A stretch of DNA of 64,000 nucleotides, taken from assembly GCF_003030345.1 (NCBI RefSeq), contig NZ_CP028158.1, positions 2,170,001-2,234,000 on the forward strand, read 5' to 3'. The notes under the pieces are model-generated. The model was not told where the DNA came from. It saw only the letters and a program-made list of their open reading frames with translations, and ran no database searches. This stretch comes from Plantactinospora sp. BC1 (GTDB taxonomy: Bacteria > Actinomycetota > Actinomycetes > Mycobacteriales > Micromonosporaceae). Of this stretch, positions 39,193 through 64,000 are shown one piece after another. How positions within the stretch are numbered: position 1 is the stretch's first letter; each line of letters opens with the position of its first letter. Position numbers and translations under genes: made by a program.

Positions 39193-40289
39193 TCACCCGT
39201 CACCCGGTCGCCCTGCCGGGCCCAGGTGTCGAGGCCGGTCAGCACCTCGCGGAGTCCGGCACCGCGCCCGGTGAGCAGGTAGCTGATCCGGGTGGGCGGC
39301 CCGGGGTCCACCCGGCGGCGCAGCAGCCCCGCGTCGGCGAGTTCGCGCAGCCGTTCGGTGAGCACCCGCCGGGAGATCCCCGGCAGCGCCTCGACGAGGT
39401 CGCGGAACCGGGCCTCGCCGTGGCCCAGCACGTGCAGCAGGTCGAGGGTCCAGCGCCGGCCGAGCGTCTCCAGTGCGGCCGAGGTGGCCGCCGGGAGTCG
39501 CCGGTCGAGGATGGTTACTTTTTCCAACCTGTTTTCGTCGGTTGCCGCCCCGGTCGGGTCATTCGCCGGCCGGCCGTCCGCCGGGTCGGCCGGGCCGCGC
39601 TCGCCGGACAGGAAGACGCCGATGCCGTCGAGGACCCGGCCCAGGCCGAACTCGAAGTCCTGCCGTACGGTCGCCGGGGCGGCACCGACCTCTTCGGTCA
39701 GCCGGGACAGCACCGGAAACTGGCCGGTGCCGAGCAGCCGGGCCAGCGCCGGCGCCTCGGCCGCCCACCACTGCTCGGCGTTCACCCCGGTCCGCCGCTC
39801 CTGCTCGACCTCGGTCTGCACATAGCGGGCGGCGCCCTGCACGTAGTCGCTGACGGTCAGATAGACCTGGAGCATCGTCGCCGGGTCGAGCCCGAAGCCG
39901 TCGACGGCGGCCAGTACCCACTCCACGCTGGCCAGCACGTTCGGCCCGAGCGGGGGGCGGCCGGTGCCGGCCACGATCGGCAGCACCCACGGATGCCGCT
40001 GGTACATCGCCCACTCCCGGCGGGCGCCCAGCTCGATCCTGGCCCGCCAGCCGGCCGGACCCGGCTCCGGATAGTCGATCTCGCCGAAGACGGTCTCCAC
40101 CATCAGGTCCACCAGCTCGGCCTTGCCCGGCACGTACCGGTAGAGCGACATCACCCCGGCGTCCAGGGCGGTGGCGACCCGACGCATCGAGAGGGTCGCC
40201 AGGCCGTGCGCGTCGGCGAGCCCGACCGCCACCCGCACGATGCGGTCCAGGCTCAGCCCCGGGCCGCTCCCGGCACCGTCGCGTTCCAT
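39189..40289 (-). CDS. TetR-HxlR double-domain transcriptional regulator
   Basis: A 366-residue regulator with two DNA-binding domains. Residues 12-60 are a TetR HTH (IVRVAVGLADAHGLATLSMRR), and residues about 70-225 are the TetR/AcrR ligand domain. Residues 269-360 form a complete HxlR-type winged helix (ALETLGRRWTLDLLHVLGHG; GISRRVLTERLRELADAGLL). No stop or start with a ribosome-binding site separates the halves. ATG 40289 follows GGGGCGGGG; GTG 40313 is an alternative. It is divergent from the GNAT gene, with a palindrome between them; repression of that gene and of itself is likely. Its stop overlaps the convergent kinase stop. Confidence 0.85.
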   Translation of the reverse strand: MERDGAGSGPGLSLDRIVRVAVGLADAHGLATLSMRRVATALDAGVMSLYRYVPGKAELVDLMVETVFGEIDYPEPGPAGWRARIELGARREWAMYQRHPWVLPIVAGTGRPPLGPNVLASVEWVLAAVDGFGLDPATMLQVYLTVSDYVQGAARYVQTEVEQERRTGVNAEQWWAAEAPALARLLGTGQFPVLSRLTEEVGAAPATVRQDFEFGLGRVLDGIGVFLSGERGPADPADGRPANDPTGAATDENRLEKVTILDRRLPAATSAALETLGRRWTLDLLHVLGHGEARFRDLVEALPGISRRVLTERLRELADAGLLRRRVDPGPPTRISYLLTGRGAGLREVLTGLDTWARQGDRVTGD

Positions 40290-46580: not shown

Positions 46581-47149
46581 GCCGGCACCCCGCTCTCCCC
46601 CCGGCCGTCCCGCCCACGTCGGCGTCCGCCGACCATGACCGCCGGTGGTGGCCCGCCGACCACACGTCGCGCACCCGGTGACCGCTCATCGCGCCGTCCT
46701 CCCTCCCACGGCGCCGGGGCGGGGTCCGTCCCGGCACACGGCGAAAGCACCCCGCCTCCAGCCGCAGGCGAACCGCCGGACCGGGCGTAGGTGTCGGACT
46801 CCCCCACTGCCCCGACGCCGATCGGCCGAAACATCGACAGGCGTGCGCGGCGCCGCGCTCCGGACGCCCGTCACCGGGCGGTACCCGGCACCACGGGCCC
46901 CGCGGTCCTCGGCCGGGGACCCGCCGATCGGGGCTCCACTGTGGTATTCCCGGCGGGCGACGCCTCGGATACCGTGGGTGCTACCTCCGGTGCCAGCAGG
47001 TCGCCGTCGATGCCGACCGCCCGGTGGACCGGCCACTCCGCCCGCGCGCGGCCCGGCCCGGATCCGTCCCGGGCGGCAGGTCCCGACAGCCGAACCGCGC
47101 CCCGTCCCCGCGATCCCTGGGCAGGATCGCCGCAAGAGGAGGTGCCGCC
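46581..47149. other. 569-base intergenic region
   Basis: It lies upstream of lpqY (minus) and of the RusA-like gene (plus), so both promoters lie here. I see no CebR-type box or clear palindrome. The long open frames crossing it have non-coding composition. The right end has AGAGGAGG, the ribosome-binding site of the gene at 47150. Confidence 0.5.
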
Positions 47150-47581
47150 GTGCAGAACACCCGGGCGCTCACCCTGTCCTTCGAGGTCAGCGGGCCGCCG
47201 CCGGTGAAGACCGAGGCGCTGTCGATCTTCGCGGCCGGGCACCGGCAGGCGGCCCGGGTCCGTACCCTGCTCCAGGCCGCCTGCACCGCCGCGCAGCGCA
47301 GCGGCTGGACGGCGCTGTCCGGACCGGTCGCCCTGGAGATCGTGCTGCGCTGCCCGCCGGGTCGGCGGACCTCCGACGCCGCGACCCTGATCGGCGGGAT
47401 TGGCGCCGTGCTCCAGGACAAGAAGCGGGCCGCCGACATCGGCCTCGCCCACCTCGGGGTACTCGCCGACGTCGCGCTCTACGTCGACGACCGGCAGGTC
47501 CAGCAGGTGTCGTACCGGGAGGAGCCGGCCGAGGAGCTGTCGTACCTGGTCCGGGTGACCAGCCTGCCGCCCGTGGCCTGA
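47150..47581 (+). CDS. RusA-like protein (Holliday-junction resolvase fold), putative
   Basis: A 143-residue protein. The N-terminus LSFEVSGPPPVKTEA resembles the 'G.P..K.R' start of RusA resolvases, and ADVALYVDDRQVQQVSY carries the Asp-Asp-x-x-Val signature of their active site. An Asp also lies in RTSDAATLIGGI, where RusA has its DxDN motif, but the motif is incomplete. The likely role is a structure-specific nuclease or an inactive relative. GTG 47150 has AGAGGAGG upstream. Confidence 0.55.
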   Translation: MQNTRALTLSFEVSGPPPVKTEALSIFAAGHRQAARVRTLLQAACTAAQRSGWTALSGPVALEIVLRCPPGRRTSDAATLIGGIGAVLQDKKRAADIGLAHLGVLADVALYVDDRQVQQVSYREEPAEELSYLVRVTSLPPVA

Positions 47582-47756
47582 GCCGGTGCCGCCCGTACGC
47601 GCCGAGCCGGGCGCCGGCCGGCACCGCCCCGGCGGAACGACGGCGACACCGGTACGCCGGAACCGGTTTGACCCTCGCCCACCGCTGGGTACGCGGACGC
47701 GACCGGCGGGTGACGGGGACCGGCGGGCAACGGCACCGGCGACGAAGGGAGCGGTC

Positions 47757-48041
47757 ATGTCGGAGCCACACGTCACGCTCGACCCCACCGGCCTGGACCC
47801 GGCGCGGCAGCATCTGCGCGGACCGCTGGAGGAGCAGCTCAACTCCGCGTTGCGGGCGGCCACCGAACGGGTCCGGGCCGACTACGCAGGTGAACCGGTC
47901 GAGGAGGTCTGCCGTCGGCTGCTCGACGAGACCCGGTCGGGGCTGCATCCGGACATCGCGGCCGGATTCACCCCGGACATGGACGAGTTCTGCCGGGTCG
48001 CCGTGGCGATCGTCCGGCGGGACGGCTCCGGGTCCCGCTGA
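47757..48041 (+). CDS. hypothetical 94-residue protein
   Basis: A small, acidic, helical protein (LRGPLEEQLNSALRAATERVRADYAG; VEEVCRRLLDETRSG). ATG 47757 is preceded by AAGGGAG. It lies between the RusA-like gene and the GGDEF-EAL gene on the same strand. I do not recognise the family. Confidence 0.6.
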   Translation: MSEPHVTLDPTGLDPARQHLRGPLEEQLNSALRAATERVRADYAGEPVEEVCRRLLDETRSGLHPDIAAGFTPDMDEFCRVAVAIVRRDGSGSR

Positions 48042-48195
48042 CCCGCGCCCGGACCCCGGGCAAGATCGACGGCTGTCGGCGCGGGGGCGTTGGCCGTGGA
48101 CGTCCGGCCTCCGTACACTCAGTGCGCCGTCACGGCCGACCGTGCACGTCCCGCGTCCCCTGCACCGGATCCGGTCGATCTCTACGGGAGGCCCA

Positions 48196-50223
48196 GTGCC
48201 CGCACTGCCGTCCAGCGTGCCCGCCGCGGTGCTCGACACCACCTCCACCGCCCTGCTGACCACGGCCGAGAACGGCGAGGTGACCTGGTACAACCGGGCG
48301 GCGCAGCGACTCGGCCAACTCGTCGGGGCGGACATCGGCTCGCTGCCCTTCGACACCGCCACCCCGGGCGGACCGCCGGTCGAGTTGCGCTGCCCGACGG
48401 CCGACGGCACGGTACGGCACCTGCGGGTCACCTGCCGGCGGCTGCCGCCGCTGCCGCGTACCGACCCGGAGCCGGACGGCCACCTGGTGTACGAGCTGAT
48501 CGACGTCACCGAGCAGCGTGCCGACCGGCGCCGTGCCGACGACTACGCCTGGCGGCTCTCCCACATCGAGCAGTTGGCCCGGGTCGGCACCTGGGAGTGG
48601 CACCTCCCCACCGACCAGGTGGTCTGGTCACCCACCCTGAAGGCCATGATCGGGCTGGCCCCGGAGACCGCGCTGGACTACCCGACCTACCGGACGATGA
48701 TCCATCCGGACGACCTCGGGATGATCGAGGCGACCCTGGACCGGGCGATCCGGGAGGCGAGCCCGTTCACCTACACCCACCGGATGTACCTGGCGAACAG
48801 CCGTCAGATGCGCGTCCTGGAGTGCTACGGCGAGGTCTTCACCGACGAGTCCGGCCGGCCGCTGCGGATGCTCGGTACGGCGCACGACATCACCGAGATC
48901 CGGCAGGTCCAGGACGAGCTGGCGTACCTCGCCGAGCACGATCCGCTGACCGGGCTGCCGAACCGGCGGGCGCTGACCGCGAAGCTGAGCCAGCTCACCG
49001 GCACCGACGGGGCGACGGCGGCGGCCCTGCTCCTGATCGACATCGACAACTTCAAGGACATCAACGACCTGCGCGGGCACGCCATCGGCGACGAGGTGCT
49101 CCGGCTGCTGGCCCGGCTGCTCCCCGACCACCTGCCCGCCGACGCGGTACTCGGCCGGCTCGGCGGGGACGAGTTCGCCGTGCTGCTCCCCTCCTGTGAC
49201 GCCGACGGGGCGCTGGCGATCGGGGCCGGGCTCTGCGACCTGGTCGCGCACACCCCGCTCGCGGTGCGCGGCGAGCCGCTGCGGGTGACGCTGAGCATCG
49301 GCGCCGCCCCGCTGGACGCCGCCGACGACGACGCCCTGCTGCTCGCGCACGCCGACCTGGCGCTCTATCAGGCCAAGGGCGAGGGTCGAAACCGGGCCCG
49401 GCTCTTCGCGCCGGAGCAGCAGCGGCTGGCCGCCCAGCGGGTCGACCTGGTCTCCCGGGTACGCCGGGCGCTGGACACCGGTCAGTTGCAGCTCGACGCC
49501 CAGCCGATCATCGACCTCGGCGACGACCAGGTGCGCAGCTACGAGCTGCTGATGCGGGTACGCGACGACCAGCACCGGCAGATCGGTCCCGGGGACTTCC
49601 TGCCGGCGCTGGAGCGCGGCGACATGATCTACGAGCTGGACCGTTGGGTGGTGGAGACCGCCACCGGAGCGCTCGCCGCGGCCCGGGGCGCCGGGGTGGA
49701 GCTGCGGCTGGACGTGAACATCTCCAGCCGTTCCCTGGAGGATCCGAGCTTCGGTGACTGGGTGGTCGGCACCCTGGCCGCCGCGGGCGTACCGGCGACC
49801 CAGCTCGGCCTGGAGATCACCGAGACCACCGCGATCGCCAACCTGGCCGCCGCCCGCCGGCTCGCCTCCACGCTCACCTCGGCCGGCTGCCGGTTCAGCC
49901 TGGACGACTTCGGCGCCGGATACGGCTCCTTCGTCTACCTCAAGCACCTGCCGTTCAGCGCGGTCAAGATCGCGGGTGAGTTCGTCCGGCACGCCGACCA
50001 CGGCGGCTCCGACCCGATCCTGATCGACGCCGTGGTGCGGGCCGCGCACGGGCTCGGGATGCGGACCGTCGCCGAGCACATCGACCGGCCCGAGCTGGTG
50101 CCGGTGCTGCGCGACCTCGGCGTCGACCGGGGCCAGGGATACCACCTGGGCCGGCCCGAGCCGCTGCACGAGCTGATGGCCCGGACCATCGCCCGGTCCG
50201 GCGTCTCCGCCACCATCCGGTAG
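48196..50223 (+). CDS. PAS-PAS-GGDEF-EAL cyclic-di-GMP turnover protein
   Basis: A 675-residue cytoplasmic protein. PAS domains are at about 8-110 and 125-235 (RVGTWEWHLPTDQVVWSP; PDDLGMIEATLDRAI). GGDEF runs from about 240 to 400 with intact RLGGDEF (323-327), so diguanylate cyclase activity is possible. EAL runs from about 415 to 665 with YELLMRV in place of xEALxR, LDVNISSRSL, LEITET and LDDFGAGYGS, so phosphodiesterase activity is also possible. The GTG start is fixed by GGGAGG 5 bases upstream. In actinomycetes c-di-GMP controls development through BldD. No membrane segment was found. Confidence 0.93.
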   Translation: MPALPSSVPAAVLDTTSTALLTTAENGEVTWYNRAAQRLGQLVGADIGSLPFDTATPGGPPVELRCPTADGTVRHLRVTCRRLPPLPRTDPEPDGHLVYELIDVTEQRADRRRADDYAWRLSHIEQLARVGTWEWHLPTDQVVWSPTLKAMIGLAPETALDYPTYRTMIHPDDLGMIEATLDRAIREASPFTYTHRMYLANSRQMRVLECYGEVFTDESGRPLRMLGTAHDITEIRQVQDELAYLAEHDPLTGLPNRRALTAKLSQLTGTDGATAAALLLIDIDNFKDINDLRGHAIGDEVLRLLARLLPDHLPADAVLGRLGGDEFAVLLPSCDADGALAIGAGLCDLVAHTPLAVRGEPLRVTLSIGAAPLDAADDDALLLAHADLALYQAKGEGRNRARLFAPEQQRLAAQRVDLVSRVRRALDTGQLQLDAQPIIDLGDDQVRSYELLMRVRDDQHRQIGPGDFLPALERGDMIYELDRWVVETATGALAAARGAGVELRLDVNISSRSLEDPSFGDWVVGTLAAAGVPATQLGLEITETTAIANLAAARRLASTLTSAGCRFSLDDFGAGYGSFVYLKHLPFSAVKIAGEFVRHADHGGSDPILIDAVVRAAHGLGMRTVAEHIDRPELVPVLRDLGVDRGQGYHLGRPEPLHELMARTIARSGVSATIR

Positions 50224-51752: not shown

Positions 51753-52508
51753 TCACCGGGGCAGGATCCGCTCCAGCAGCAGCGGGACCAGCCGATCCGC
51801 CTGGTCGTCCAGATAGAAGTGGCCGCCGGGCAGCGAGTGCACGTCGAGCCCGGCGTTGGTGTGCACCACCCACCGCCGGGCGTCGGCGGCGGTGAAGGTG
51901 TGGTCCCGGTCCCCGACGATCGCGGTGATCGGGCAGTTCAGCGGCTCGCCGGCCGCGTAGCGGTAGGTCTCGATCAGCCGCAGGTCGCCCCGGACCATCG
52001 GCAGCGTCAACTGCCGGATCTCGTCGAGTTCCAGCAGTTCCACGCCGCTGCCGCCGAGTTCCCGCAGATACGCGACCACCCCGTCGTCGTCGCGCAGATG
52101 CACCCCGATCGAATGTCGGGCCGACGGTGCCGGACCGGCCGACACGAAGAGCCGGCGCACCGTCAACGAGTCGCTGCGGCGCAACCGGCGGGCCACCTCG
52201 AAGGCGACCACGGTGCCCATGCTGTGCCCGAAGAAGACCACCGGTCCGGTCAGTTCCCGCTCGACCGCCGCGACGATCTCGTCGACCAGTACGCCCATGT
52301 CGTCGATGACCGGCTCGCCGTACCGGTTCTGCCGGCCCGGGTACTGCACCCCGATCACCTCGATCGAGTCGGGCACCAGTTCCGCCCAGCGCCGGTAGCC
52401 CGCCGCCCCGCCGCCCGCGTGCGGGAAGCAGACGAGCCGTACGGTGGCCCGGGGCGCGGCCGCGAAGCGGAGGAACCAGTCGTTCGTGACCCTGCCGTAC
52501 GTGCTCAC
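51753..52508 (-). CDS. type II (editing) thioesterase
   Basis: A 251-residue alpha/beta hydrolase of the RifR/GrsT type: LVCFPHAGGGAAGYRRWAELVP, the nucleophile elbow GHSMG, and the His in LPGGHFYLDD. Type II thioesterases clear misloaded or stalled acyl groups from PCP/ACP domains of NRPS/PKS lines. It is the last gene of the fatty-acyl ligase-SARP-thioesterase operon (49 bases after the SARP gene). The GTG start has AAAGGG upstream. Confidence 0.93.
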   Translation of the reverse strand: MSTYGRVTNDWFLRFAAAPRATVRLVCFPHAGGGAAGYRRWAELVPDSIEVIGVQYPGRQNRYGEPVIDDMGVLVDEIVAAVERELTGPVVFFGHSMGTVVAFEVARRLRRSDSLTVRRLFVSAGPAPSARHSIGVHLRDDDGVVAYLRELGGSGVELLELDEIRQLTLPMVRGDLRLIETYRYAAGEPLNCPITAIVGDRDHTFTAADARRWVVHTNAGLDVHSLPGGHFYLDDQADRLVPLLLERILPR

Positions 52509-52557
52509 CGGCGCAGCCCTTTCCCTCGGTGGAGTTGTCCCGGGCGGAGCCGGGTGG

Positions 52558-54534
52558 TCAGCCGTTCTCCTTGGCGCCCGGGCCCGGGCGGCTGCCGAAC
52601 GTCCGGTCCAGCGCCGCGTACCGCTCGTCGGCCGTCTCCTCGTCCGCGGCCTGTTCCATGGCGAGCGCCCGGACCAGGTCGTGGAAGAAGTATCGCGCCT
52701 GGCTCGAACCGTCGACCTGGACGACGTCCAGCAGTCGGGCGTCGACCAGTTGCTCCAGCAGCTCCCGCGCGGTGGCGAGGGTGACGTCGAGCAGCACCGC
52801 CGCGGTCCAGATGGCGAACCGGGGCGCGTCCAGCAGGGCCAGCAGCCGGAAGGCACGCCGGGCCGGCTCGTCCAGGCCCTGGAGGCTCAGCGCCACGCTG
52901 GCCCGTACCTCCAGGTCGCCGATCCGCAGCTCGTCCAGCCGCCGACGCTGGCTGGAGAGCCGGTCGGCGAGCCGGGCCAGCCGCCAGTGCGGCTTGGCGG
53001 TGAGCCGGGCACCCGCGATGCGTACGCCGAGCGGCAGGTGCCCGCAGAGTTCGACGATGCGTACCGCGGACTCCGGCTCGGCGGCCACCCGGGCGGCACC
53101 GACGATCTTGGAGAGCAGCTCCAGCGCCTGCCGGTGTTCGAGGACGTCCAGGTCGATCAGGGGTACGCCCTCCAGCGCCGCCAGCCGGGCCCGGCTGGTC
53201 ACCATCGCCGCGCAGGTCGGGCTCTCCGGCAGCAGCGGGCGTACCTGCTGCTCGCTGGCGGCGTTGTCGAGCAGCACCAGTACCCGCCGCCCGGCGAGCC
53301 GGTTCTGGTAGAGCTGGACCCGCTCCGCCATCGACGGCGGGATCTCCGACGCCTCCACCCCGAGCGCCCGCAGGATGGTGCCGAGCAGGTCCACCGGGTC
53401 CGCCGGCTGTGGTCCGGCGCCGCGCAGGTCCAGATAGATCTGCCCGTCCGGGTACGACGAGCGCAGCAGGTGTCCGACGTGGATCGCCAGGGCGGTCTTG
53501 CCCAGCCCGGCCATCCCGCCGATCACGCAGGCGAGCCGCCGCCCACCGTTGTCCGCCCGGGTACGCAGCAGCGCGACCACCTGGGCGGCCTCCCGGTCCC
53601 GGCCGGTGAAGTCGGCCACGTCCGGCGGGAGCCGGGCCGGCAGCGGTTCGGCCGGGGTACGCCGGACGGCCACCCGGACCTCCGGCGCCGGCAGGGTCAG
53701 CGACGCCTCGGCGGCCAGGATGGACTTGTGCAGGTCCTGTAGCTCGCGTCCCGGGTCGATGCCGAGTTCCTCGGCGAGCAGGTGCCGGTAGTCCTGGTAG
53801 CTGGCGAGCGCGTCGGCCTGCCGGCCGCAGCGGTAGAGCGTCAGCATGAGCTGGCCGCGCAACTGCTCGCGCAGCGGGTCCGCCGCGACCAGCCCGGTCA
53901 GCTCGACGACCAGCCGCCCGTGCTGGCCGAGCGCCAGTTCCGCGTCGATCCGGTCGCCGAGCGCGGCCAGCCGCGCCTCCTCCAGGCGGGGCCGCTCCGC
54001 GTCGCTGAGGAACTCGGTCACCCCGGCGAGGGCGGGGCCGCGCCACAGCGCGAGGGCGCCGCGCAGCGCCTCGGCGGCGTCGGCGGGCCGGCCCTCGGCG
54101 AGGGCGTCCCGGCCCCGCGCCGCGAGCTGCTCGAAACGCACCAGGTCGAACCGCTCGGGTGCGACCCGCAGCACGTAGCCGGGGCGCTGCCGGACGATCT
54201 CGGCGTCCGGTGCGAGCTTGGCGCGCAGCCGGGAGACGTACGTCTGGATCTGCGCGGCGGCGGTGACCGGCGGGTCGTCGCCCCAGAGCACCACGGCGAG
54301 CCGCGAGTCGGAGACCACCCGACCCCGGGCGAGCAGCAGTACGGCGAGCACGGTGCGTACCTTGGACGCGCTGAGTTCGACCAGGCCGGTCGAGTCGACC
54401 ACCTCGACCGAGCCGAGGATCCGGAATTCCATCTCCCCGGGCCGGGGGTGGCCGGTCACGCCCGGCCCGGTGGAATCGACCGGTGCCGGAGCCGGCGGGG
54501 TTCCGAACATCAGGACCTCCCCGCCGGACGTCAT
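52558..54534 (-). CDS. SARP/AfsR-type pathway regulator
   Basis: A 658-residue regulator. Residues about 40-125 form an OmpR-like DNA-binding domain (MEFRILGSVEVVDSTGLVEL), about 130-275 a BTAD (DAEALRGALALWRG-like; LREQLRGQLMLTLYRCGRQADALASYQ), then NB-ARC with Walker A GGMAGLGKT and LVLLDNA. It lacks the C-terminal TPR array of AfsR. SARPs activate antibiotic clusters by binding phased heptamer repeats. ATG 54534 overlaps the FAAL stop (ATGA) and has AAGGA; ATG 54510 with GGGGAGG is an alternative start. It is the probable activator of this lipopeptide cluster. Confidence 0.92.
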   Translation of the reverse strand: MTSGGEVLMFGTPPAPAPVDSTGPGVTGHPRPGEMEFRILGSVEVVDSTGLVELSASKVRTVLAVLLLARGRVVSDSRLAVVLWGDDPPVTAAAQIQTYVSRLRAKLAPDAEIVRQRPGYVLRVAPERFDLVRFEQLAARGRDALAEGRPADAAEALRGALALWRGPALAGVTEFLSDAERPRLEEARLAALGDRIDAELALGQHGRLVVELTGLVAADPLREQLRGQLMLTLYRCGRQADALASYQDYRHLLAEELGIDPGRELQDLHKSILAAEASLTLPAPEVRVAVRRTPAEPLPARLPPDVADFTGRDREAAQVVALLRTRADNGGRRLACVIGGMAGLGKTALAIHVGHLLRSSYPDGQIYLDLRGAGPQPADPVDLLGTILRALGVEASEIPPSMAERVQLYQNRLAGRRVLVLLDNAASEQQVRPLLPESPTCAAMVTSRARLAALEGVPLIDLDVLEHRQALELLSKIVGAARVAAEPESAVRIVELCGHLPLGVRIAGARLTAKPHWRLARLADRLSSQRRRLDELRIGDLEVRASVALSLQGLDEPARRAFRLLALLDAPRFAIWTAAVLLDVTLATARELLEQLVDARLLDVVQVDGSSQARYFFHDLVRALAMEQAADEETADERYAALDRTFGSRPGPGAKENG

Positions 54535-56327
54535 CGGAAGTCCTTGCCGTGGCTCACCGCGAGCGGCCGGCCGACCGCGCGGTAACGGCGCCGGGTCTCG
54601 ATGTCCAGGTCCTCGTAGACCGGGTCGAGGGCGTCGGCCATGAACAGCTCCCGCATCAGCGCCCGCTGCACCTTGCCGCCGGGCGACTTGCGCACCTTGC
54701 CGGGGCGCAGGAAGGCCACGTTGGCCACCCGTACCCCGAAGCACCGGCTGAGCCAGTCCTTGACGCCACGGGCCAGCGACGAGAGCGTCGCCGGGTCGGC
54801 CGGCTCCGCCTCGACCTCGTGCAGGACGACGATCTCCTGTCGGGGCGACGGCACCGCGAAGACGGTGCCGGTCAGATCGGCGAACCGGGTGTCGGAGGTG
54901 CGGACCGCCTTCTCCATGTCGTGCGGATAGAGGCTCCGCCCGCCGATGACCAGCATCTCGCGCATCCGGCCGAGCACGTAGAGCTCGGCGCCGGCCCAGA
55001 CGCCGAGGTCACCGGTACGCAGGTAGCCGCCCTCGCCGTCGGCGGTGGTCGCCTCGAAGGCCCGGTCGCTCTCCACCTCGCGCCGCCAGTAGCCACGGGC
55101 CACGCTCCGGCCCCGGATCCAGATCTCGCCGAGCCGTCCGTCGGGCAGTATCGCGGTGGTGTCCGGGTCGACGATCCTGACGTCAAGACCATTTACCGTG
55201 CCGCTACTGACAAGCGATCTCGCCGCGGCCGCATCGGTCGCCGCCGGCAGCAGGATGTTCTGTTCCAACCGGCTCGGATCGAACCGTTCCACCGCGAGCG
55301 GACGACCGGGTCGGGTGCCGGAGACGAACAATGTCGACTCGGTGATGTGATAGCCGACCCGCACCGCTTCGCGACGGAACCCGGCCGGCGCGAACCGGTC
55401 GGCGAATTCGATCAGCGGCTCGGGCTCGATCGGATCCGCCCCGCCGACGCAGGCGTGCTCCCACCGGGCCAGGTCCAAGCCTCTGACCTGCTCGTCGGTC
55501 ACCCCGCGCGCGCACATCCGGTAGGCGAAACCGGGCGCGGAACTGATCCGCACATCGCATTTGTCGATAGCTTTCAACCAACGGAACGGATCGGTGAAAA
55601 AATCATCGGGCGACATGAGCACGGTGGTGGCGCCGCGATAGAGCGGTTCGAGCAGCATTTTGAGCAGACCGGCGCCGTCGTGCAGTGGCAACCAACCGAG
55701 GGAACGGTCCTGCGGCGTCAGCGAAAACGCGTCCCTGAACATTTCGAAGTTGTGCGCCAGGTTCTCATGGCTGATCATCACACCTTTTGGATCGCTCATG
55801 GACCCGGTCGTATAGCGCAGCAGTGCCAAGGTGCTCGAACCGATGTGCGTCGGCCCGTCCCAGGCACCCGGGGCAGCCGGCCCGGCGAGGTCGGTGGCGG
55901 TGCAGAGCAGCCGGTCCAGCCCGTCCTGGCTCATCCAGTCGGAGACCGTGACCAGGCTTCCGCTGTCGGTCAGCACGATCCTCGGGTCGGAGTCCAGCGC
56001 GATCCCGGTGGCCCGCATGAGGTGGTGCTTGTCCCCGTCGGGCAGCGGGGCCGGCACCGGGACGACACCGGCATACATACAGCCCAGGATGCTTTTGACG
56101 AACTCTAGGCCCGTCGGATAGAGCAGTAGTGCGCGATCGCCGGGACGACAGCGGTCCCGGAGTCTGCCGGCCAACTGCCGGGCAGCCCGGTCCAGCTCGC
56201 CGTAGCTCAAGGACTCCGAACGTTCTTCACGTTCGTCCCAACGGAGGAGGACAACAGCCTCCCGGTCCGGATCCTGGTCGGCGTGTCGGGCGACCCGCTC
56301 CACCAAACCCACGATTCCCACCCGCAT
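54531..56327 (-). CDS. fatty-acyl-AMP ligase (FAAL), stand-alone
   Basis: A 598-residue adenylating enzyme of the FAAL type. The P-loop is TTGSMSDPKGVMISHEN; GWLPLHDGAGLLKMLLEPLY and RTGDLGVW are FAAL/ANL segments; the C-terminal Lys region reads KSPGGKVQRALM. FAALs make fatty acyl-adenylates and pass them to an ACP or the starter C domain, giving N-acylated peptides. It heads a three-gene operon with the SARP and thioesterase. ATG 56327 follows GGGGGGA. It predicts that the peptide product is lipidated. Confidence 0.92.
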   Translation of the reverse strand: MRVGIVGLVERVARHADQDPDREAVVLLRWDEREERSESLSYGELDRAARQLAGRLRDRCRPGDRALLLYPTGLEFVKSILGCMYAGVVPVPAPLPDGDKHHLMRATGIALDSDPRIVLTDSGSLVTVSDWMSQDGLDRLLCTATDLAGPAAPGAWDGPTHIGSSTLALLRYTTGSMSDPKGVMISHENLAHNFEMFRDAFSLTPQDRSLGWLPLHDGAGLLKMLLEPLYRGATTVLMSPDDFFTDPFRWLKAIDKCDVRISSAPGFAYRMCARGVTDEQVRGLDLARWEHACVGGADPIEPEPLIEFADRFAPAGFRREAVRVGYHITESTLFVSGTRPGRPLAVERFDPSRLEQNILLPAATDAAAARSLVSSGTVNGLDVRIVDPDTTAILPDGRLGEIWIRGRSVARGYWRREVESDRAFEATTADGEGGYLRTGDLGVWAGAELYVLGRMREMLVIGGRSLYPHDMEKAVRTSDTRFADLTGTVFAVPSPRQEIVVLHEVEAEPADPATLSSLARGVKDWLSRCFGVRVANVAFLRPGKVRKSPGGKVQRALMRELFMADALDPVYEDLDIETRRRYRAVGRPLAVSHGKDFR

Positions 56328-56860: not shown

Positions 56861-57811
56861 TCAGGCGTTCGACGGCTCCGCCATCGCCACCGCGATCTGC
56901 CGAGGGCCGGTGAACGGCTCGCGGCCGTGCGCCGCGAGCATGTTGTCGACCACCAGCACGTCGTCGTACTGCCAGTCGAACCGTACGGTCGCGGCACGGT
57001 AACAGTCGCGCAGGTGGGAGATGACGTCGTCCGGGATCCGGGCCCCGTCACCGTAGTAGGTGTTCGTCGGCAGGTCCTCCTCGTCGAACATCTCCAGGAC
57101 CCCCTCCCGGACGTCCCTCGGCAGCGTCGTCACGTGGAAGAACGTGGCGTGGTTGAACCACACCGCCTCGCCGCTGACCGGGTGCGTGTGCACCGGCTTG
57201 CGGACCGCCCGGGTCCGCAACCCGCCGCCGTCCCGCCATTCGGTCTCGATCCCGTTGCCCGCGCAGTACTCCGTGACGGCCGCCCGGTCGTCGGTGTTGA
57301 AGATCTGCTGCCACGAGGTGCCGAACGAGCCGTGGAAGTTGCGCACCACCATCCAGCCCCGCCGGACGAACTCCTCGCGGATGGTCGGGTCGATCGACCG
57401 GTACACCTTGCGGATGTCGGCCAGCGGGGTGGCCCCCCGGGTGGCCGGCGCCTGTCGGCAGTAGAAGTAGAGGGTCAGCGGCCACACCGCCTGGTAGGAG
57501 TTCTCGTTGTGCAGGAAGATCTCCTCTTCCGGCGGGTAATCGGTCGAGGTGTAGACCTGGCCCTTGATCGTGCTCCGCGGCGAGGAGCGCTCCGAATAGG
57601 TCAGCGGCGGGCCGGAGAGCGCGCGCACCACCGCGTCGAAGCCGTCGACCCCACCGACGGAGAAGCCACGCAGCAGCAGCGCACCCCGCTCGTTGAGGAT
57701 CTTCCGCAGGCCGGCACGCTCGGCCCGGATCAGCTCCCCGATCTCGGCGCCGGCCGACTCGCGGGTGACCAGGTGCGGCATTGTTCCGATGTCAGTAGTG
57801 GAGGAAGTCAT
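56861..57811 (-). CDS. SyrP-like Fe(II)/2-oxoglutarate amino-acid hydroxylase (1)
   Basis: A 316-residue double-stranded beta-helix oxygenase. Metal ligands are likely H101 and E103 (HNENSY) and H295 (AAHGREPFTG), with R304 for 2-oxoglutarate. The framework (YTSTDYPP, WPLTLYFYCRQAPATRGATP) matches the SyrP/KtzO group, which beta-hydroxylates amino acids while bound to a PCP, often Asp, Glu or Asn. It precedes a terminator hairpin and follows the second hydroxylase by 46 bases. ATG 57811 has GAGGAAG upstream, close to the start codon. Confidence 0.88.
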   Translation of the reverse strand: MTSSTTDIGTMPHLVTRESAGAEIGELIRAERAGLRKILNERGALLLRGFSVGGVDGFDAVVRALSGPPLTYSERSSPRSTIKGQVYTSTDYPPEEEIFLHNENSYQAVWPLTLYFYCRQAPATRGATPLADIRKVYRSIDPTIREEFVRRGWMVVRNFHGSFGTSWQQIFNTDDRAAVTEYCAGNGIETEWRDGGGLRTRAVRKPVHTHPVSGEAVWFNHATFFHVTTLPRDVREGVLEMFDEEDLPTNTYYGDGARIPDDVISHLRDCYRAATVRFDWQYDDVLVVDNMLAAHGREPFTGPRQIAVAMAEPSNA

Positions 57812-57857
57812 GGTCCGGCCCTTCGGTCTGGACAACTCCGCGCGGCGATCCGGCGGC

Positions 57858-58799
57858 TCAGTCGGACATGGCAACCAGGACCCGGCGCCGTCCGGTGAAC
57901 GGACGCCGGCCGTGGCCGACCAGTACATTGTCGATCAGCAACACGTCGCCCTGGCACCAGTTGACATCGACGGCGCTCTCCAGACCGCGATCGCGTACCT
58001 GGATAACGTAGTCGTCGGGGATCGGAGTGCCGTCGGCGAAGGTGACCGACTGCGGAAGCTCGTCCGGCGGCAACACCTCGGCCAGCGACTTCGCGGTCTC
58101 GTCACCGAGCGCCGCCGGGTGCCACTGGTCGGACTGGTTGAACCACACCTCGACCCCGGTCACCGGGTGCCGGGTGGTGGAGGGGCGGTCCTGGGTGACT
58201 CGCAGCCCACCGTCGGACTTCCACTCCCACTTCGCCTCGGTGCTGCTCAGGAACGCCTCGACCTCGTCCCGGTCGGCGGTCTCGAAGGTGTCCTGCCAGC
58301 TCTTGCCGAGACCGAAGCCGTCGTGCAGGTTCTGGGTGTAGCGCACCCCACCGGCGTACGCGGCGCGCACCTCCGGGTCCAGCGAGTGCAGCCAGAGTGC
58401 GGCGTCGACCACCGGAGTGGCGCCACCGGTCTCCGCCGCCGTGTGGCAGAAGAACATCAGCCGGGACGGCCACTGGTGGGCGTACGACAGCTCGTTGTGC
58501 ATCGAGATGGTGAACTCGGGCGGGTACTCGGTGGAGGTGTAGACGTTCTTCCCCACCTTGGTGCGCGGCGAGTTGCCGTGCACGTACGCCAGCCGGTTGG
58601 GCAGCAGCCGGTCCATGACCGGGTCGAGCGTCTCCTCCGTCACCTGGAAGCCGCGGAAGACCAGCGCCTTCTCGGCGGTCAGCAGCTTCTCCAGGTCCGG
58701 CGTCGTCGAGAGGTAGTCGACCAGCCCCTGCGGGCTCGCCGCCACCCCGGCGGCCGCCGGGTCGATCTCCATCGGTCTCCAGGTCTGGTGACCTTCCAT
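57858..58799 (-). CDS. SyrP-like Fe(II)/2-oxoglutarate amino-acid hydroxylase (2)
   Basis: A 313-residue homologue of the neighbouring hydroxylase. Ligands are H101, E103 (HNELSY) and H296 (VGHGRRPFTG), with the same YTSTEYPP and GGATP elements. The two share the framework but differ clearly elsewhere, so they probably hydroxylate different residues or faces, as the KtzO/KtzP pair does in kutzneride biosynthesis. ATG 58799 follows AAGGGAG at 6 bases. Confidence 0.88.
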   Translation of the reverse strand: MEGHQTWRPMEIDPAAAGVAASPQGLVDYLSTTPDLEKLLTAEKALVFRGFQVTEETLDPVMDRLLPNRLAYVHGNSPRTKVGKNVYTSTEYPPEFTISMHNELSYAHQWPSRLMFFCHTAAETGGATPVVDAALWLHSLDPEVRAAYAGGVRYTQNLHDGFGLGKSWQDTFETADRDEVEAFLSSTEAKWEWKSDGGLRVTQDRPSTTRHPVTGVEVWFNQSDQWHPAALGDETAKSLAEVLPPDELPQSVTFADGTPIPDDYVIQVRDRGLESAVDVNWCQGDVLLIDNVLVGHGRRPFTGRRRVLVAMSD

Positions 58800-58910
58800 C
58801 GGACTCTCCCTTCGAGGGGACTCCCGCGAAAGGTGGAGACCGGTAGCGGGAATCGGAAGGTAATGCGTCGGTGACACAGCCGTCATCCAGTCCAAGGATG
58901 CAGGCAAGAT

Positions 58911-60377
58911 CTATACTTTCTCGATACTGCGGCCATTGGCCGACTGAGCTGCGGCAACGGTCGGGCCGGCGGCGCCGTTCCCGGTCCGGACACCGGCCGC
59001 CGGAGGCACGTTGTTGCGGCCGGGCGCCGCGTGCCGGCCGAGTCGGCGGACCATCCGGGCGTTGTCCGGAGTCCGGGCGATGCCCCGCACCGCCGGACTG
59101 AGCACGGCGAGCACCACCAGCGACGACATCACCGCGCTGAGCCACAGCACCGTCGGCCGGATCCCGGCGCCGGCCAGCAGCACCCCGCCACCCAGCGCGC
59201 CGAGGAAGTTCGACCCCGAGGCCAGCAGCGTGGCCACCGCGCCGACCCGACCCATCATCGGATCCGGGGTGATCCGGACCATGTACACCATGCCGACCAC
59301 GTTGAAGAGTCCGCCGACGTAGCTGTTGGCGGCGAAGATCACCGACAGGTGGACCGGGTTGGTGGTGAAGGCCATCAGCGGCACCGTCACCGCCCAGGCG
59401 GCCAGCCCGCCCACCACCAGGGCCCGCAGGGTGGCCCGGCGCAGCCACCACATGCCGCTCAGCGCGCCGAGCATCCCGCCGATGCCACTGGCCCCGATCA
59501 CCGCGCCGACCACGGCGGCCGAACCGCCGCCGTTGCGGATGATGACCATCAGCGCCAGGGTGAGCGCCTGGAAGACGGCATTGCTGATCGCCACGAACCC
59601 CAACACGGTACGCAGGAAGCGCTGTTGCCACATCCAGGCCAGCCCCTCGGCGATGTCGGCGCGCAGCGTGGTGACGCGTCGCTCCGTACGGGCCTGTTGG
59701 AAGGGCTTGCGGATCAGCAGCAGCGCGATCAGGGAGCCGAGGTGGGCGATCGTGGTGAAGAGGAACGGCGCCCACTTGGCCGCCGTGAAGAGCACCCCGC
59801 CGACCGGCTGGCCGATCAGCACCGCCGCGCGGCCCCGGGCCTCGTTCTGGGTCAGCGCGGTCGACAGCTGATCGGCCGGGACGAGCTGCCGGACGGCGGC
59901 CCGCTCGCCGAGCTGGTAGAAGACGCTCAGGCTGGTCTGCACGAACGCCACGACCATGAGCTGAGGCACCCAGATCCGGTCGAGCAGCACGGCCAGGGCC
60001 ACGCTGCCGGTGGCGACGAGACAGCCCAGATCACAGAAGATCATCATCCGGCGGCGGTCCCAGCGGTCGACGAACGCACCCGCCGGCAGCTGGACCAGCA
60101 AATGTGGCAGCAGCGCCGCGGCGCCGACCAGGCCCGCGTTCCCGGCCGAGCCGGTGTACCAGAGCACCAGCATCGGGTACGCGATCGAGGTGATCCGGGC
60201 CCCGATCAGGGTGCCGGCCGCCCCGACCCAGAGCAGCAGGAAGTCCCGGTTGCGGCGCAGCGGGACACTCGGCGGGCCTGGTTCGGCCGGCGCCGGAGGT
60301 TCACCGGGAGGTGGCGGCGGGGCACCACGCGGCGCCGCCCCGCCGGATGGCGGGGCGGGCTCCTCCACGATGCTCAC
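58911..60377 (-). CDS. MFS transporter, likely exporter of the cluster product
   Basis: A 488-residue major-facilitator protein. About 45 Pro-rich residues precede 10-12 membrane helices; the loop between helices 2 and 3 reads [13 protein letters not shown], typical of the enterobactin-exporter/MFS_3 branch, and [16 protein letters not shown] is also typical. GTG 60377 overlaps the stop of the NRPS gene (GTGA), which ties export to synthesis. About 55 soluble residues follow the last helix. Confidence 0.9.
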
Positions 60378-63300
60378 GATCCGGACCCCGGCGGCCCGTC
60401 GACCGGGCCACGGCGGCACCACTCCAACACCGCCATCGCGCTGTGCATCTTGTTCTCCGCCTGCTCGAAGGCGATGCTCGCCGGGCCGTCCAGCACCTCG
60501 GCGGTGACCTCCTCGCCCCGGTGCGCCGGCAGGTCGTGCATGAAGACCGCGTCCGGGCTGCCGACCCAGAGCCCGGCGTCGACCTGGAACGGCGCGAAGA
60601 TCTCCCGCCAGTTCGGGTCGGGCTTGCTGGTGCCGGTGGTCTGCCAGCGGGTGGTGTAGACGACGTCGAAACCGCCGGGCAGCTCCGCCATGTCGTGCCG
60701 CTCGCGGATCGTCGCCGTACCCCGGGCCGCCTGCGCCGAGGCGGTCGCCCTGATCTCCTCGGTCAGCCCGTACCCCGGCGGGGTACGCAGCTCCAGGTGG
60801 GTGCCGGCGTACCGGGTCAGGGCCAAGGCCAGCGCGGCGGCACTGTTGTTGCCCTCGCCGACGTAGAGCACCCGCAGCCCGTCGATCCGTCCGAAGTGGT
60901 CGAGCATCGTGGTCAGGTCGGTCAGCGCCTGGGTCGGGTGCTCGTCGGCGCTCATCGCGTTGACCACCGACATCCGGTCCTGGTCGGCCAGTTGCCGCAA
61001 CTCCGCCGGGTCACCCGAGGTGCGGGCCACCAGCACGTCGAGCATCCGGGACATCACCCGGCCGGTGTCGGCGTGCGTCTCGCCGGTGTTGAGCTGGAGG
61101 TCCTCCGGCCCGTACGCGACGATCTGCGCGCCGAGCCGCAGCGCGCCGCTGGAGAACGCGGTCCGGGTCCGGGTCGAGGTCCGCTTGAAGTAGACGCCGA
61201 CCACGTCGCCGTCGAGCGGCCGCTCCCGCCGGGCCTGCCCGGACCGGAACCGTACCCCCCGGGCGACGATGGACCGCAGGTCCTCGTCGGTCAGGTCGTT
61301 GATCGAGATCAGGTGTCGCACCGTCCGCGCCTCCTCCCGCACCGGACCGGTGGCCGGCGCCGCGTCCCGGGTCAGGTCGGCCTCGGTTCCGGCGCGGCCG
61401 GCCGGCTCGCCGACCCGGATGGTCTCGCCGTCCTCGGCGGCGGCGTAACCCGCCGTCGCCGCCGCGCCGCCGGGCCGCTCGACCCAGCCGGCCAGTTCGG
61501 TGGCGACGAACGACTGCACCGCCTTGCCGGACTCGGAGTTGGTCAGCACCACGAAGCCGTCACCGGCGCGGAGCCGGCCCATGGTCATCGCCCGGTAGCC
61601 GACCGTCTCGCCCGGGTGCCCGAACTCCAGGTCCGGCGCGGTGTCGTCGACGACCGTGCCGAGACCGTAGAAGGTGCCCGGCGAGGCGACCGCCACCAGT
61701 TCGGCGGCGAGTTCCGGGGTGAGCAGCTCGCCGCCGCCCAGGTGCGCACGGTGGATCTCGACCAGCACCCGGGCCAGGTCCGCGGCGGTCGTCCAGAGAC
61801 CCCCGGCGGCCAGCGCCGGACGGTTGCGCCAGCCACCGGGTACGGGTACCCCGTGCTCGTCGTGACCGAGCGCGACCCGCCGGGCGGGGTCGGCCGGGAA
61901 CGCCGGGTCGAAACTGCTGTCGGTCATGCCCAGCGGTGCCAGGACGAGCCGGCGGAGCAGCTCCGGGAACGGCTCCCCGGTCAGGTCGACCAGCACCTGT
62001 TGCAGCACCGCGTAGTGGCTGTTGGTCTTCCGGAACGACTCCCCCGGCACCAGTTCGGGCCGGACCGGCTCGGAGGTCGCCGGCGGGCGGCCGTGCAACA
62101 CGTCGAGCAGGTCCGGCATCGGCTCGGTCGGGGCGTACCCGGTGTTCGGGCTGGTGGAGAGGCCGGAGAGGTTCGCCAGCAGGTGCCGTACGGTGACCGG
62201 CGCCGGCCCGTCCGGCACCCGCCACGAGGTGAGGTACCGGTTCACGTCGGCGTCCAGCTCCAGCCGCCCCTGACCGACCAGCCGGAGTACGCCGAGCGCG
62301 GTCACGTGCTTGCTGATCGAGGCGACCTGGAACGGGGTCTCCGGGGTGACCGGCTCGGCCCCACCGGCGACGAGTACGCCGTAGCCGCGTACCTCGGCGA
62401 CCTGGCCGGCCCGGACCAGCGCGACACTCGCCCCGGGTATCTGATGCGCGGCCATGGTGGGCAGCGGCGACGGCCCGGCGGCGAGCCGACCCACCGGACG
62501 CGACTCGACCCGGGTGGCCGGCACCGGCTCGGTGGTGCCGGCGGTGACCGGCTCGGCTGTGACGGCGACCGCTGCCGGTGCGGCGGCGACCGGTTCCGGT
62601 GCGGCGGCTGCCACCGCTTCCGGTGCGGCGGCTGCCACCGCTTCCGGTGCGGGGGCTGCGGCCCTGTCCCGGCCCGGTGTGATGACGGGCAGCAGCTGGG
62701 TCGGCTCGACGAGCAGACTGGCCGGAGCCGGTGCGCCGAGGGCGACGGCCAGCTCGGCGACGCTGCCGTGCTGGTAGAGCATCCGCAACGACACCGGAAG
62801 ATCGGCCTTCCGGGCGGCGGTGACGAGCTGCACGATCCGCATCGAGTCGGCGCCCAGGTCGAAGAACCTGTCGTGCACCCCCACCCGGTCGATGCCGAGC
62901 ACCTCCACGCAGATCCGGGCGATCCGCCGCTCGATCTCGTTGCGCGGCGCCACGAACTCGCGCTCGCCGCCGAAGGACGTGCGCTCCGGCGCCGGCAGCG
63001 CCCGCCGGTCCACCTTGCCGGCCGAGTTCAACGGCAACGCGTCCAGGGTGACGAACGCGACCGGCACCATGTAGCCGGGCAGCGCCTCGGCCAGGAAGTC
63101 ACGCAGCCCGGCCGGCTCGATCGGCCGGCCGTCCACCGGTACGACGTAGCCGGCGAGCCACTTCTCGCCGCCCTGGTCCTCCCGGGCCACCACCACCCCG
63201 TTGCGGACGTCCGGGTGGGCGAGCAGCCGCTCCTCGATCTCGGGCAGCTCGATCCGGTGCCCCCGGATCTTCACCTGGTGGTCCGCCCGACCCAGGAACT

Positions 63301-64000
63301 CCAGGTTCCCGTCCGGCCCGTACCGGACCAGGTCACCGGTGCGGTACATCCGGGTCCCGGCCGCCTTGCCGAACGGCTCCGGCAGGAACTTCTCGGCGGT
63401 CAGCTCGGGGCGGTTGACGTACCCCCGGGCGACGCCGTCACCGGCGATGTACAGCTCGCCGACGACGCCGACCGCGACCGGCTGGAAGTCCCGGTCCAGC
63501 ACGTACGTCCGGGTGTTCGCGATCGGCCGGCCGATCGGCACCACCTCGACGTCCCCGGGCACGTCCCAACTCGTCGACCAGATCGCGGTCTCGGTCGGAC
63601 CGTACACGTTGACCAGTCGCTTCACCCGGCCGCGCAGGTCACCGGCGAGCGCCGGCGGCAGCGCCTCGCCGCCGACCAGCGCGACCACCGGCCGTTGCCC
63701 GAAACCCGCGTCCAGCAGCAGCTTCCAGCCCGACGGCGTCGCCTGGACGTGCGTCACCGGATAGCGGTCGAGCAGGCTGAGCAGCTCCGGACTGTCTCCC
63801 ACCTCGTCGTCGTCGGCCAGCACCAGCCGGCCGCCGGTGACCAGCGGGAGATACAGCTCCAGCCCGGAGATGTCGAAGGAGAGCGAGGTGGCGGCGAGCC
63901 AGACGTCGTCGGTGCCGGCGTCCAGCAGCCGGCGCATCGAGAAGAGCAGGTTCAGCAGCGCCCGGTGCGAGATCTGCACGCCCTTCGGCCGCCCGGTCGA
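60374..64000 (-). CDS. NRPS polypeptide (5' part outside window): A-PCP-serine hydrolase-carbamoyltransferase fusion
   Basis: The visible 1208 residues start inside an adenylation domain at core A3 (TGRPKGV). The A-domain pocket reads D-I-L-Q-L-G-V-I-W-K, close to the known glycine code. PCP: LGADS with Ser386. An Ala/Pro linker spans about 420-510. Residues about 515-860 form a beta-lactamase/penicillin-binding-type hydrolase with SISK (Ser561, Lys564), KTN (658-660, where YxN is usual) and HPG (795). Residues 894-1208 form an ornithine-carbamoyltransferase-like domain with STRTR (942-946), HPTQ (1021-1024) and HDLP (1155-1158, normally HCLP). The SxxK domain could release or cyclise the peptide as SurE-type enzymes do. 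The frame has no stop. It is coupled to the MFS gene. Confidence 0.9.
61319..61338 (-). promoter_or_regulatory. internal ribosome-binding site and GTG before the carbamoyltransferase domain
   Basis: GGGAGGAGG (61338-61330) lies 8 bases before an in-frame GTG (61321-61319). From that GTG the frame reads [15 protein letters not shown], just where ornithine carbamoyltransferases normally start, and gives 315 residues, the usual length. A separate carbamoyltransferase could therefore be made as well as the fusion. Confidence 0.6.
62601..62648 (-). repeat. two 24-bp tandem repeats in the NRPS linker
   Basis: 62601-62624 and 62625-62648 are identical and encode Ala/Pro/Glu linker residues (EAVAAAAP) between the PCP and the hydrolase domain; diverged copies flank them. 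The linker probably grew by slippage. Confidence 0.8.

Follow-up and report, generated by a model that had tools for sequence, protein, structure and literature searches.

The C-terminus of a nonribosomal peptide synthetase (NRPS) is the usual site of a thioesterase, and two further groups of described enzymes bear on the gene reported here. Penicillin-binding-protein (PBP)-type thioesterases of the SurE group are presented in a review as stand-alone proteins with a lipocalin-like domain. Among transcarbamylases, (T/S)RWQTTG together with HDLP marks the 2,3-diaminopropionate (Dap) enzyme and TRWQSMG together with HDLP the 2,4-diaminobutyrate (Dab) enzyme, according to a review (PMC4581275), which adds that the substrate-binding residues of both lack confirmation by crystal structure. 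We analysed a 64,000-nucleotide stretch of the Plantactinospora sp. BC1 genome (the window, G000:C1:2170001-2234000 of an 8.33-Mb single contig) in which an adenylation (A) domain, a peptidyl carrier protein (PCP), a serine hydrolase of family S12 (PF00144) and a carbamoyltransferase are joined in one reading frame. Genes and domains of this cluster that are given with window coordinates lie on the (-) strand.

Results

The fused frame runs without a stop from the end of the window to the stop at 60374 (60374..64000). Its Pfam matches follow in the order AMP-binding, AMP-binding_C, PP-binding, Beta-lactamase (E 4e-52), OTCace_N (3e-36) and OTCace (7e-34), which bears out a preliminary description, made from the window alone, of a single A-PCP-SxxK hydrolase-carbamoyltransferase chain with these domain families. 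Extension of the contig, as that description had suggested, completed the gene (G000:C1:2230374-2234483, or 60374-64483 in window coordinates), which starts at 64483, 483 nt past the window end, and encodes 1369 aa; it also brought out two upstream NRPS genes, n2 and n1. The visible part of the A domain (63419..64000) carries the code DILQLGVIW(K), which we take to be Gly-like, and is followed by the AMP-binding_C subdomain (63014..63241), the PCP or thiolation (T) domain (62747..62926), the S12 hydrolase as a candidate in-cis release domain (61526..62458), a variable linker (61319..61525) and a predicted Dap-type transcarbamylase domain (60416..61318). The protein begins with the A domain and has no condensation (C) domain of its own; the C domain that precedes it forms the C-terminal end of n2, whose frame overlaps the start of the fused gene by a few bases. 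A structure prediction for the hydrolase and carbamoyltransferase parts (780 aa) reached a mean predicted local distance difference test score of 53.0; it was confident in the carbamoyltransferase part only, and the arrangement of the domains is not readable from it.

A search with the carbamoyltransferase as query yielded 51 related loci, 23 of them with a hydrolase nearby. Hydrolase and carbamoyltransferase share one stop-free frame in just two of these 23, from Plantactinospora endophytica (L009) and P. mayteni (L010), and are separate in the other 21. Among 354 genomes of the family, 92 matched at E 1e-60 or better and five matched over both of the last domains. All five belong to Plantactinospora, so that the fusion occurs in 5 of the 7 listed genomes of the genus, the other two having no match; in one of them (G335, locus L071) the stop that was counted sits behind the carbamoyltransferase and the chain is whole. 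In 17 other family genomes the two parts lie side by side in different open frames, as read from the match tables. A sample of 394 genomes of the class gave 17 matches, and beyond BC1 itself (G000) one, G485, matched over both domains; it was rejected as a further fusion, since a TGA divides it into two genes and the hydrolase frame ends 40 codons past the match. The chain is thus as unusual as the preliminary description had supposed. Because the frame is intact in four further Plantactinospora genomes, a sequencing or assembly artefact is excluded, and an assembly frameshift or lost stop was rejected as the cause of the fusion. In a tree computed without a distant row (L066) and without L068 and L069, duplicates of L009 and L010 by identical start-region sequence and equal length of the fused frame, the five fused rows form one clade (100/99) within unfused rows, so that the tree places the fusion at a single origin. 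We conclude that a real fusion, specific to one lineage, has joined two parts that are neighbours elsewhere.

PCP and hydrolase are in one stop-free frame in all 23 hydrolase-holding loci, with the hydrolase in cis after the last PCP, where a thioesterase usually stands; at the 21 unfused loci the frame stops no more than 60 codons past the end of the hydrolase match. The conserved unit is A-PCP-hydrolase. Across 24 aligned hydrolase sequences the Ser and Lys of the SxxK motif (SISK, 62309..62320) are invariant and the His of the HxG motif (HPG, 61610..61618) is present in 23. The YxN position, fixed by profile alignment to R61, 2QMI and IS11, reads KTN in the window gene (62021..62029), and its Tyr is found in none of the 24, being replaced by Lys (20), Arg (2), Glu (1) or Val (1). 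Stand-alone relatives differ in this respect: hydrolase matches in frames shorter than 600 aa occur in 25 of the 354 family genomes, by table reading, and the seven that were opened (G233, G145, G209, G292, G018, G036 and G349) all keep the Tyr. No A-domain or carbamoyltransferase match was found in the 13-14 kb fetched around each of the seven. Two of the NRPS-bound relatives (L023 and L024) have about 370 extra residues between PCP and hydrolase, resembling a degenerate C or epimerization domain without HHxxxDG.

The SxxK domain plausibly has a release role: at all 23 loci it follows the last PCP in cis, and the scanned proteins include a single one with a Thioesterase domain, which is separate (51753..52856, longest frame, type II-like). 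In the three NRPS proteins the domain scan detected no thioesterase domain of type I. Of the earlier proposal that this is a PBP-type release enzyme, a release role is the plausible part; the SurE features that could be examined are absent. The hydrolase lacks a lipocalin-like C-terminal domain, its place being taken by the variable linker of about 70 aa and then the carbamoyltransferase; it is part of a larger chain and has another residue for the S12 Tyr. In comparisons of the S12 domain, esterases and peptidases reach equal or higher scores, and a close fold match is EstCE1, to which the entry title ascribes acyltransferase activity.

The carbamoyltransferase domain had been described as ornithine-carbamoyltransferase-like, an identity that its motifs contradict. 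In its 240's loop TTRWQTTG replaces DxxxSMG; it also has MHDLP, hence HDLP in place of HCLP, and it scores under the NCBIfam cut-offs for ornithine carbamoyltransferase; an ornithine-type enzyme making citrulline was rejected on these motifs. The carbamoyl-phosphate motifs and the cross-subunit Gln are retained. HDLP is present in all 45 loci L009-L053 and (T/S)RWQTTG in 38, the remaining seven having Glu (5), Lys (1) or Asn (1) for the Gln, and six further loci (L054-L059) show the ornithine form. A pair of genes of the ornithine cyclodeaminase (OCD) and PALP families (G000:C1:2250927-2253044), which we take to resemble SbnB and SbnA, is linked to the fused gene and would, from its families, supply Dap; OCD/PALP-type genes also lie near the carbamoyltransferase at other loci, such as that of G320. 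With TRWQTTG and HDLP present and Dap-type genes in the cluster, the domain is most likely of the Dap transcarbamylase type, making beta-ureidoalanine as a building block. The BC1 genome encodes three further transcarbamylases: a canonical ornithine-type enzyme (L065), one resembling aspartate transcarbamylase (L066) and a second of Dap type (L064). The last belongs to a second NRPS cluster (G000:C1:985001-1042000, L087-L089) that also holds a PALP gene and a FAAL-like domain.

The junction retains what may be an internal translation start (61319..61335). A Shine-Dalgarno-like AGGAGG (61330-61335) precedes, by an 8-nt spacer, an in-frame GTG (61319-61321) exactly at the start of the carbamoyltransferase. 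Such a site accompanies 3 of the 460 in-frame ATG or GTG codons of the three NRPS genes, one of the three being this start, and several stand-alone carbamoyltransferase relatives begin at a GTG or ATG a few bases past an AGGAGG-type site. Site and start are kept in four of the five fused genes (the window gene, L009, L010 and L070) and lost in L071; their survival suggests that a free carbamoyltransferase may also be produced. In an alignment built on protein, hence blind to single indels, the linkers of the five genes are 67 to 82 codons long and differ in length by whole codons only; their GC content at third codon positions is 0.83-0.97 (0.94-0.97 in four). Their sequence varies freely, non-synonymous codon differences exceeding synonymous ones in all 10 pairs. 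In the unfused relatives examined the carbamoyltransferase is always a separate gene. Hydrolases also follow a module with the code DIAQVTLIW (G320 and G322). A near-identical line in G143 ends in a Gly-like A domain, PCP and hydrolase, and has its carbamoyltransferase behind module 2, at a distance of about 20 kb; five of its six A codes are identical to those of the window line, the second being DVWNVAMVH for DVWSVAMVH (one position). We infer that the fusion arose by loss of a stop between neighbouring genes.

Upstream on the same strand, n2 (2234477-2245516) comprises three C-A-T modules and a final C domain, and n1 (2245513-2250639), upstream of n2, is A-T-C-A-T. With positions set by GrsA numbering, the A codes in order are DAWQFATID, DVWSVAMVH, DVWNVAMVH, DLPKVAEVG, DLPKVAEVG and DILQLGVIW. 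The DLPK code, presumably Asn-like, also precedes the hydrolase in 17 of 21 readable relatives, whereas the window gene has its Gly-like code there, and DLPK or a near variant occurs in 4 of 28 loci without a hydrolase (L016, L042, L049 and L050). Six control regions of the same genome, with 16 A-domain rows between them, lack it; several of these rows look misaligned. In two papers, the Gln code is DAWQFGLIDK (PMC2866473), close to that of the first module, and the Thr code is DFWNVGMVHK (PMC9113097), close to DVWSVAMVH and DVWNVAMVH. Modules 4 and 5 of n2 (L061:4477-15516) have in common an exact 1382-nt stretch of the A domain (offset 3177), as if one had recently been duplicated from the other or gene conversion had taken place. 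C domains 4-6 of n2 have [CS]HxxxEG in place of HHxxxDG and retain the second His, and 12 of 13 C domains of relatives (one cut) have C, S or A ahead of the His and then E or D.

Downstream of the fused gene lie a major facilitator superfamily exporter (58911..60422, longest frame), with a relative of at least 45% identity close behind the carbamoyltransferase in 22 of the 23 related loci, and two TauD-family oxygenases (57858..58907 and 56861..57928, longest frames), with relatives at the same threshold in 18 and 15 of the 23, respectively. A fatty acyl-AMP ligase (FAAL; 54531..56327), probably the lipid starter enzyme, and an AfsR/SARP-family regulator (52558..54744) follow. Beyond n1 are genes for MbtH, the OCD- and PALP-family proteins, an ABC transporter pair, a stand-alone C domain, two acyl-CoA dehydrogenases, a second FAAL, a DSBA-like protein, an SDR, a FabA-like protein, an acyl carrier protein (ACP) and carboxylase parts. 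The FAALs, ACP, acyl-CoA dehydrogenases and stand-alone C genes suggest that the peptide is probably N-acylated. Elsewhere in the window, a tRNA-Pro (ggg) was called at 39955-40053 (99 nt, longer than usual), and a long frame at 46645-50223 has a GGDEF motif and, from its translation, apparently encodes a cyclic-di-GMP enzyme in its C-terminal part.

Discussion

Gene structure, motifs, conservation, tree and gene order were computed here, and from them we propose the enzymatic steps, loaded residues, lipidation and route of fusion. The explanation that we favour, with reasonable though not high confidence, is that the fused gene encodes the last protein of an NRPS with six modules and a probable lipid start, and that this protein unites an S12 release domain with a carbamoyltransferase making ureidoalanine, the two having been fused once. 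The A domain would load the last residue onto its own PCP, and the C domain ending the upstream protein would join the chain to it. The S12 domain, in place of a type-I thioesterase, would take the peptide from the PCP on its SxxK serine and free it by hydrolysis or by internal side-chain attack, for example by Thr. The SbnA/SbnB-like pair would make free Dap, which the carbamoyltransferase would turn into beta-ureidoalanine for modules of the same line. The carbamoyltransferase would have joined the terminal protein once, in a Plantactinospora ancestor, when the stop between neighbouring genes was lost, with the old start site persisting in most descendants and perhaps still giving free enzyme.

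Several observations weigh against this explanation. The general base of the S12 domain is replaced throughout, though the nearest opened stand-alone relatives keep it, so that its activity may be gone or may depart from known S12 chemistry. The cluster also encodes a Thioesterase-domain protein separate from the NRPS. Ureidoalanine could fit either the DLPK modules or the first, Gln-like module, since it resembles both Asn and Gln, and DLPK is absent from the 8 A-domain rows of the second Dap-type cluster of the genome, several of which look misaligned. Finally, a review treats carbamoylation by VioL in viomycin biosynthesis as a later tailoring step, which makes free Dap as the substrate uncertain.

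A tentative extension concerns quaternary structure. In transcarbamylases each active site is built from two adjacent subunits. Since the Gln that reaches across is conserved here, three release modules should be brought together if the fused domain works. It is possible, if somewhat doubtful, that transcarbamylase trimers hold the terminal NRPS protein, that free carbamoyltransferase from the internal start sets the number of arms per trimer and that ureidoalanine is made at the line.

Two alternatives to the scheme of a building-block enzyme and a release domain have to be weighed, both of which we regard as improbable. The first is that the carbamoyltransferase acts on the line, carbamoylating the Dap side chain of a PCP-bound or just-released peptide in concert with release by the hydrolase, much as the preliminary description had imagined an enzyme that carbamoylates and then frees the peptide. 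That five genomes join the enzyme to the termination protein, that the gene sits directly behind the terminal module in 21 of the 23 related loci and that a tailoring role is given to VioL would fit such coupling. It is nevertheless the less likely reading, because the motifs are those of a Dap transcarbamylase and the unfused relatives examined have a separate gene, about 20 kb off in the G143 line with its nearly identical codes; the residues that a review models as binding the amino and carboxyl groups of free substrate are conserved, and the start site inside the frame survives in four of five genes. Ureidoalanine made for loading is more likely. The second is that release falls to the separate thioesterase or another route, and that the S12 domain serves for acyl transfer or editing or has no activity. 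The Tyr missing here yet kept in the seven opened stand-alone relatives, the fold similarity to EstCE1 and the separate Thioesterase-domain protein all speak for this; the invariant SxxK, the near-invariant His, the position behind the last PCP in the 23 loci and the lack of a type-I thioesterase domain in the three NRPS proteins speak against it. Least probable is a SurE-type macrocyclase moved into cis and making a head-to-tail macrolactam, given the in-cis location, the missing lipocalin-like domain and Tyr, the DLPK rather than Gly-like last module of most relatives, the scores of esterases and peptidases and the probable N-acylation, with which head-to-tail cyclisation would be unlikely.

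The more general finding is the A-PCP-S12 ending with its active site changed relative to stand-alone kin. If it releases the peptide, such an in-cis family at actinobacterial NRPS ends would extend the range of NRPS release domains and might supply a catalyst of cyclisation. The Dap transcarbamylase assignment should make ureidoalanine peptides easier to predict from sequence. The fusion, in which a start site survives, illustrates how a biosynthetic enzyme may become attached to an assembly line in nature, and it offers a direct test of trimer scaffolding of NRPS proteins.

In the literature searched, from which most subscription journals were missing, we found no paper on in-cis PBP-like NRPS release domains and no known product matching the cluster. 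The rotihibin cluster rth of Streptomyces scabies (PMC8552735) shares a short lipopeptide product, a FAAL, two acyl-CoA dehydrogenases, an ACP, MbtH and an oxygenase gene; it was set aside as a product match, since rth has a reductase-domain ending, Dab and citrulline, and a gene table listing neither a carbamoyltransferase nor an S12 protein. Like the type-I thioesterase domain of NRPSs, the S12 domain is C-terminal and behind the last PCP, but it belongs to PF00144 and not to PF00975. With the PBP-type thioesterases SurE, PenA, Ulm16, FlkO and WolJ it has in common the S12 fold, SxxK and a presumed role in NRPS release; unlike them it is in cis, has no lipocalin-like domain and carries Lys or Arg for the YxN Tyr in 22 of 24 sequences. 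The SurE group closes a ring between an N-terminal L and a C-terminal D residue; on this point the last A code, Gly-like here and mostly DLPK in relatives, and the degenerate extra domain of L023 and L024 speak neither way. The seven opened stand-alone S12 proteins of the same bacterial family are 44 to 49% identical to the hydrolase domain and share S-x-S-K and HxG, whereas their Tyr (FRYSG or FRYAG) is kept and they have 88 to 125 extra C-terminal residues. The carbamoyltransferase, a predicted Dap transcarbamylase, differs from the enzymes of the viomycin VioL and zwittermicin type in that, within a single genus, it forms the C-terminal part of the last NRPS protein, and resembles them in STRTR and HPxQ, the (T/S)RWQTTG loop, HDLP and the linked Dap-type genes.

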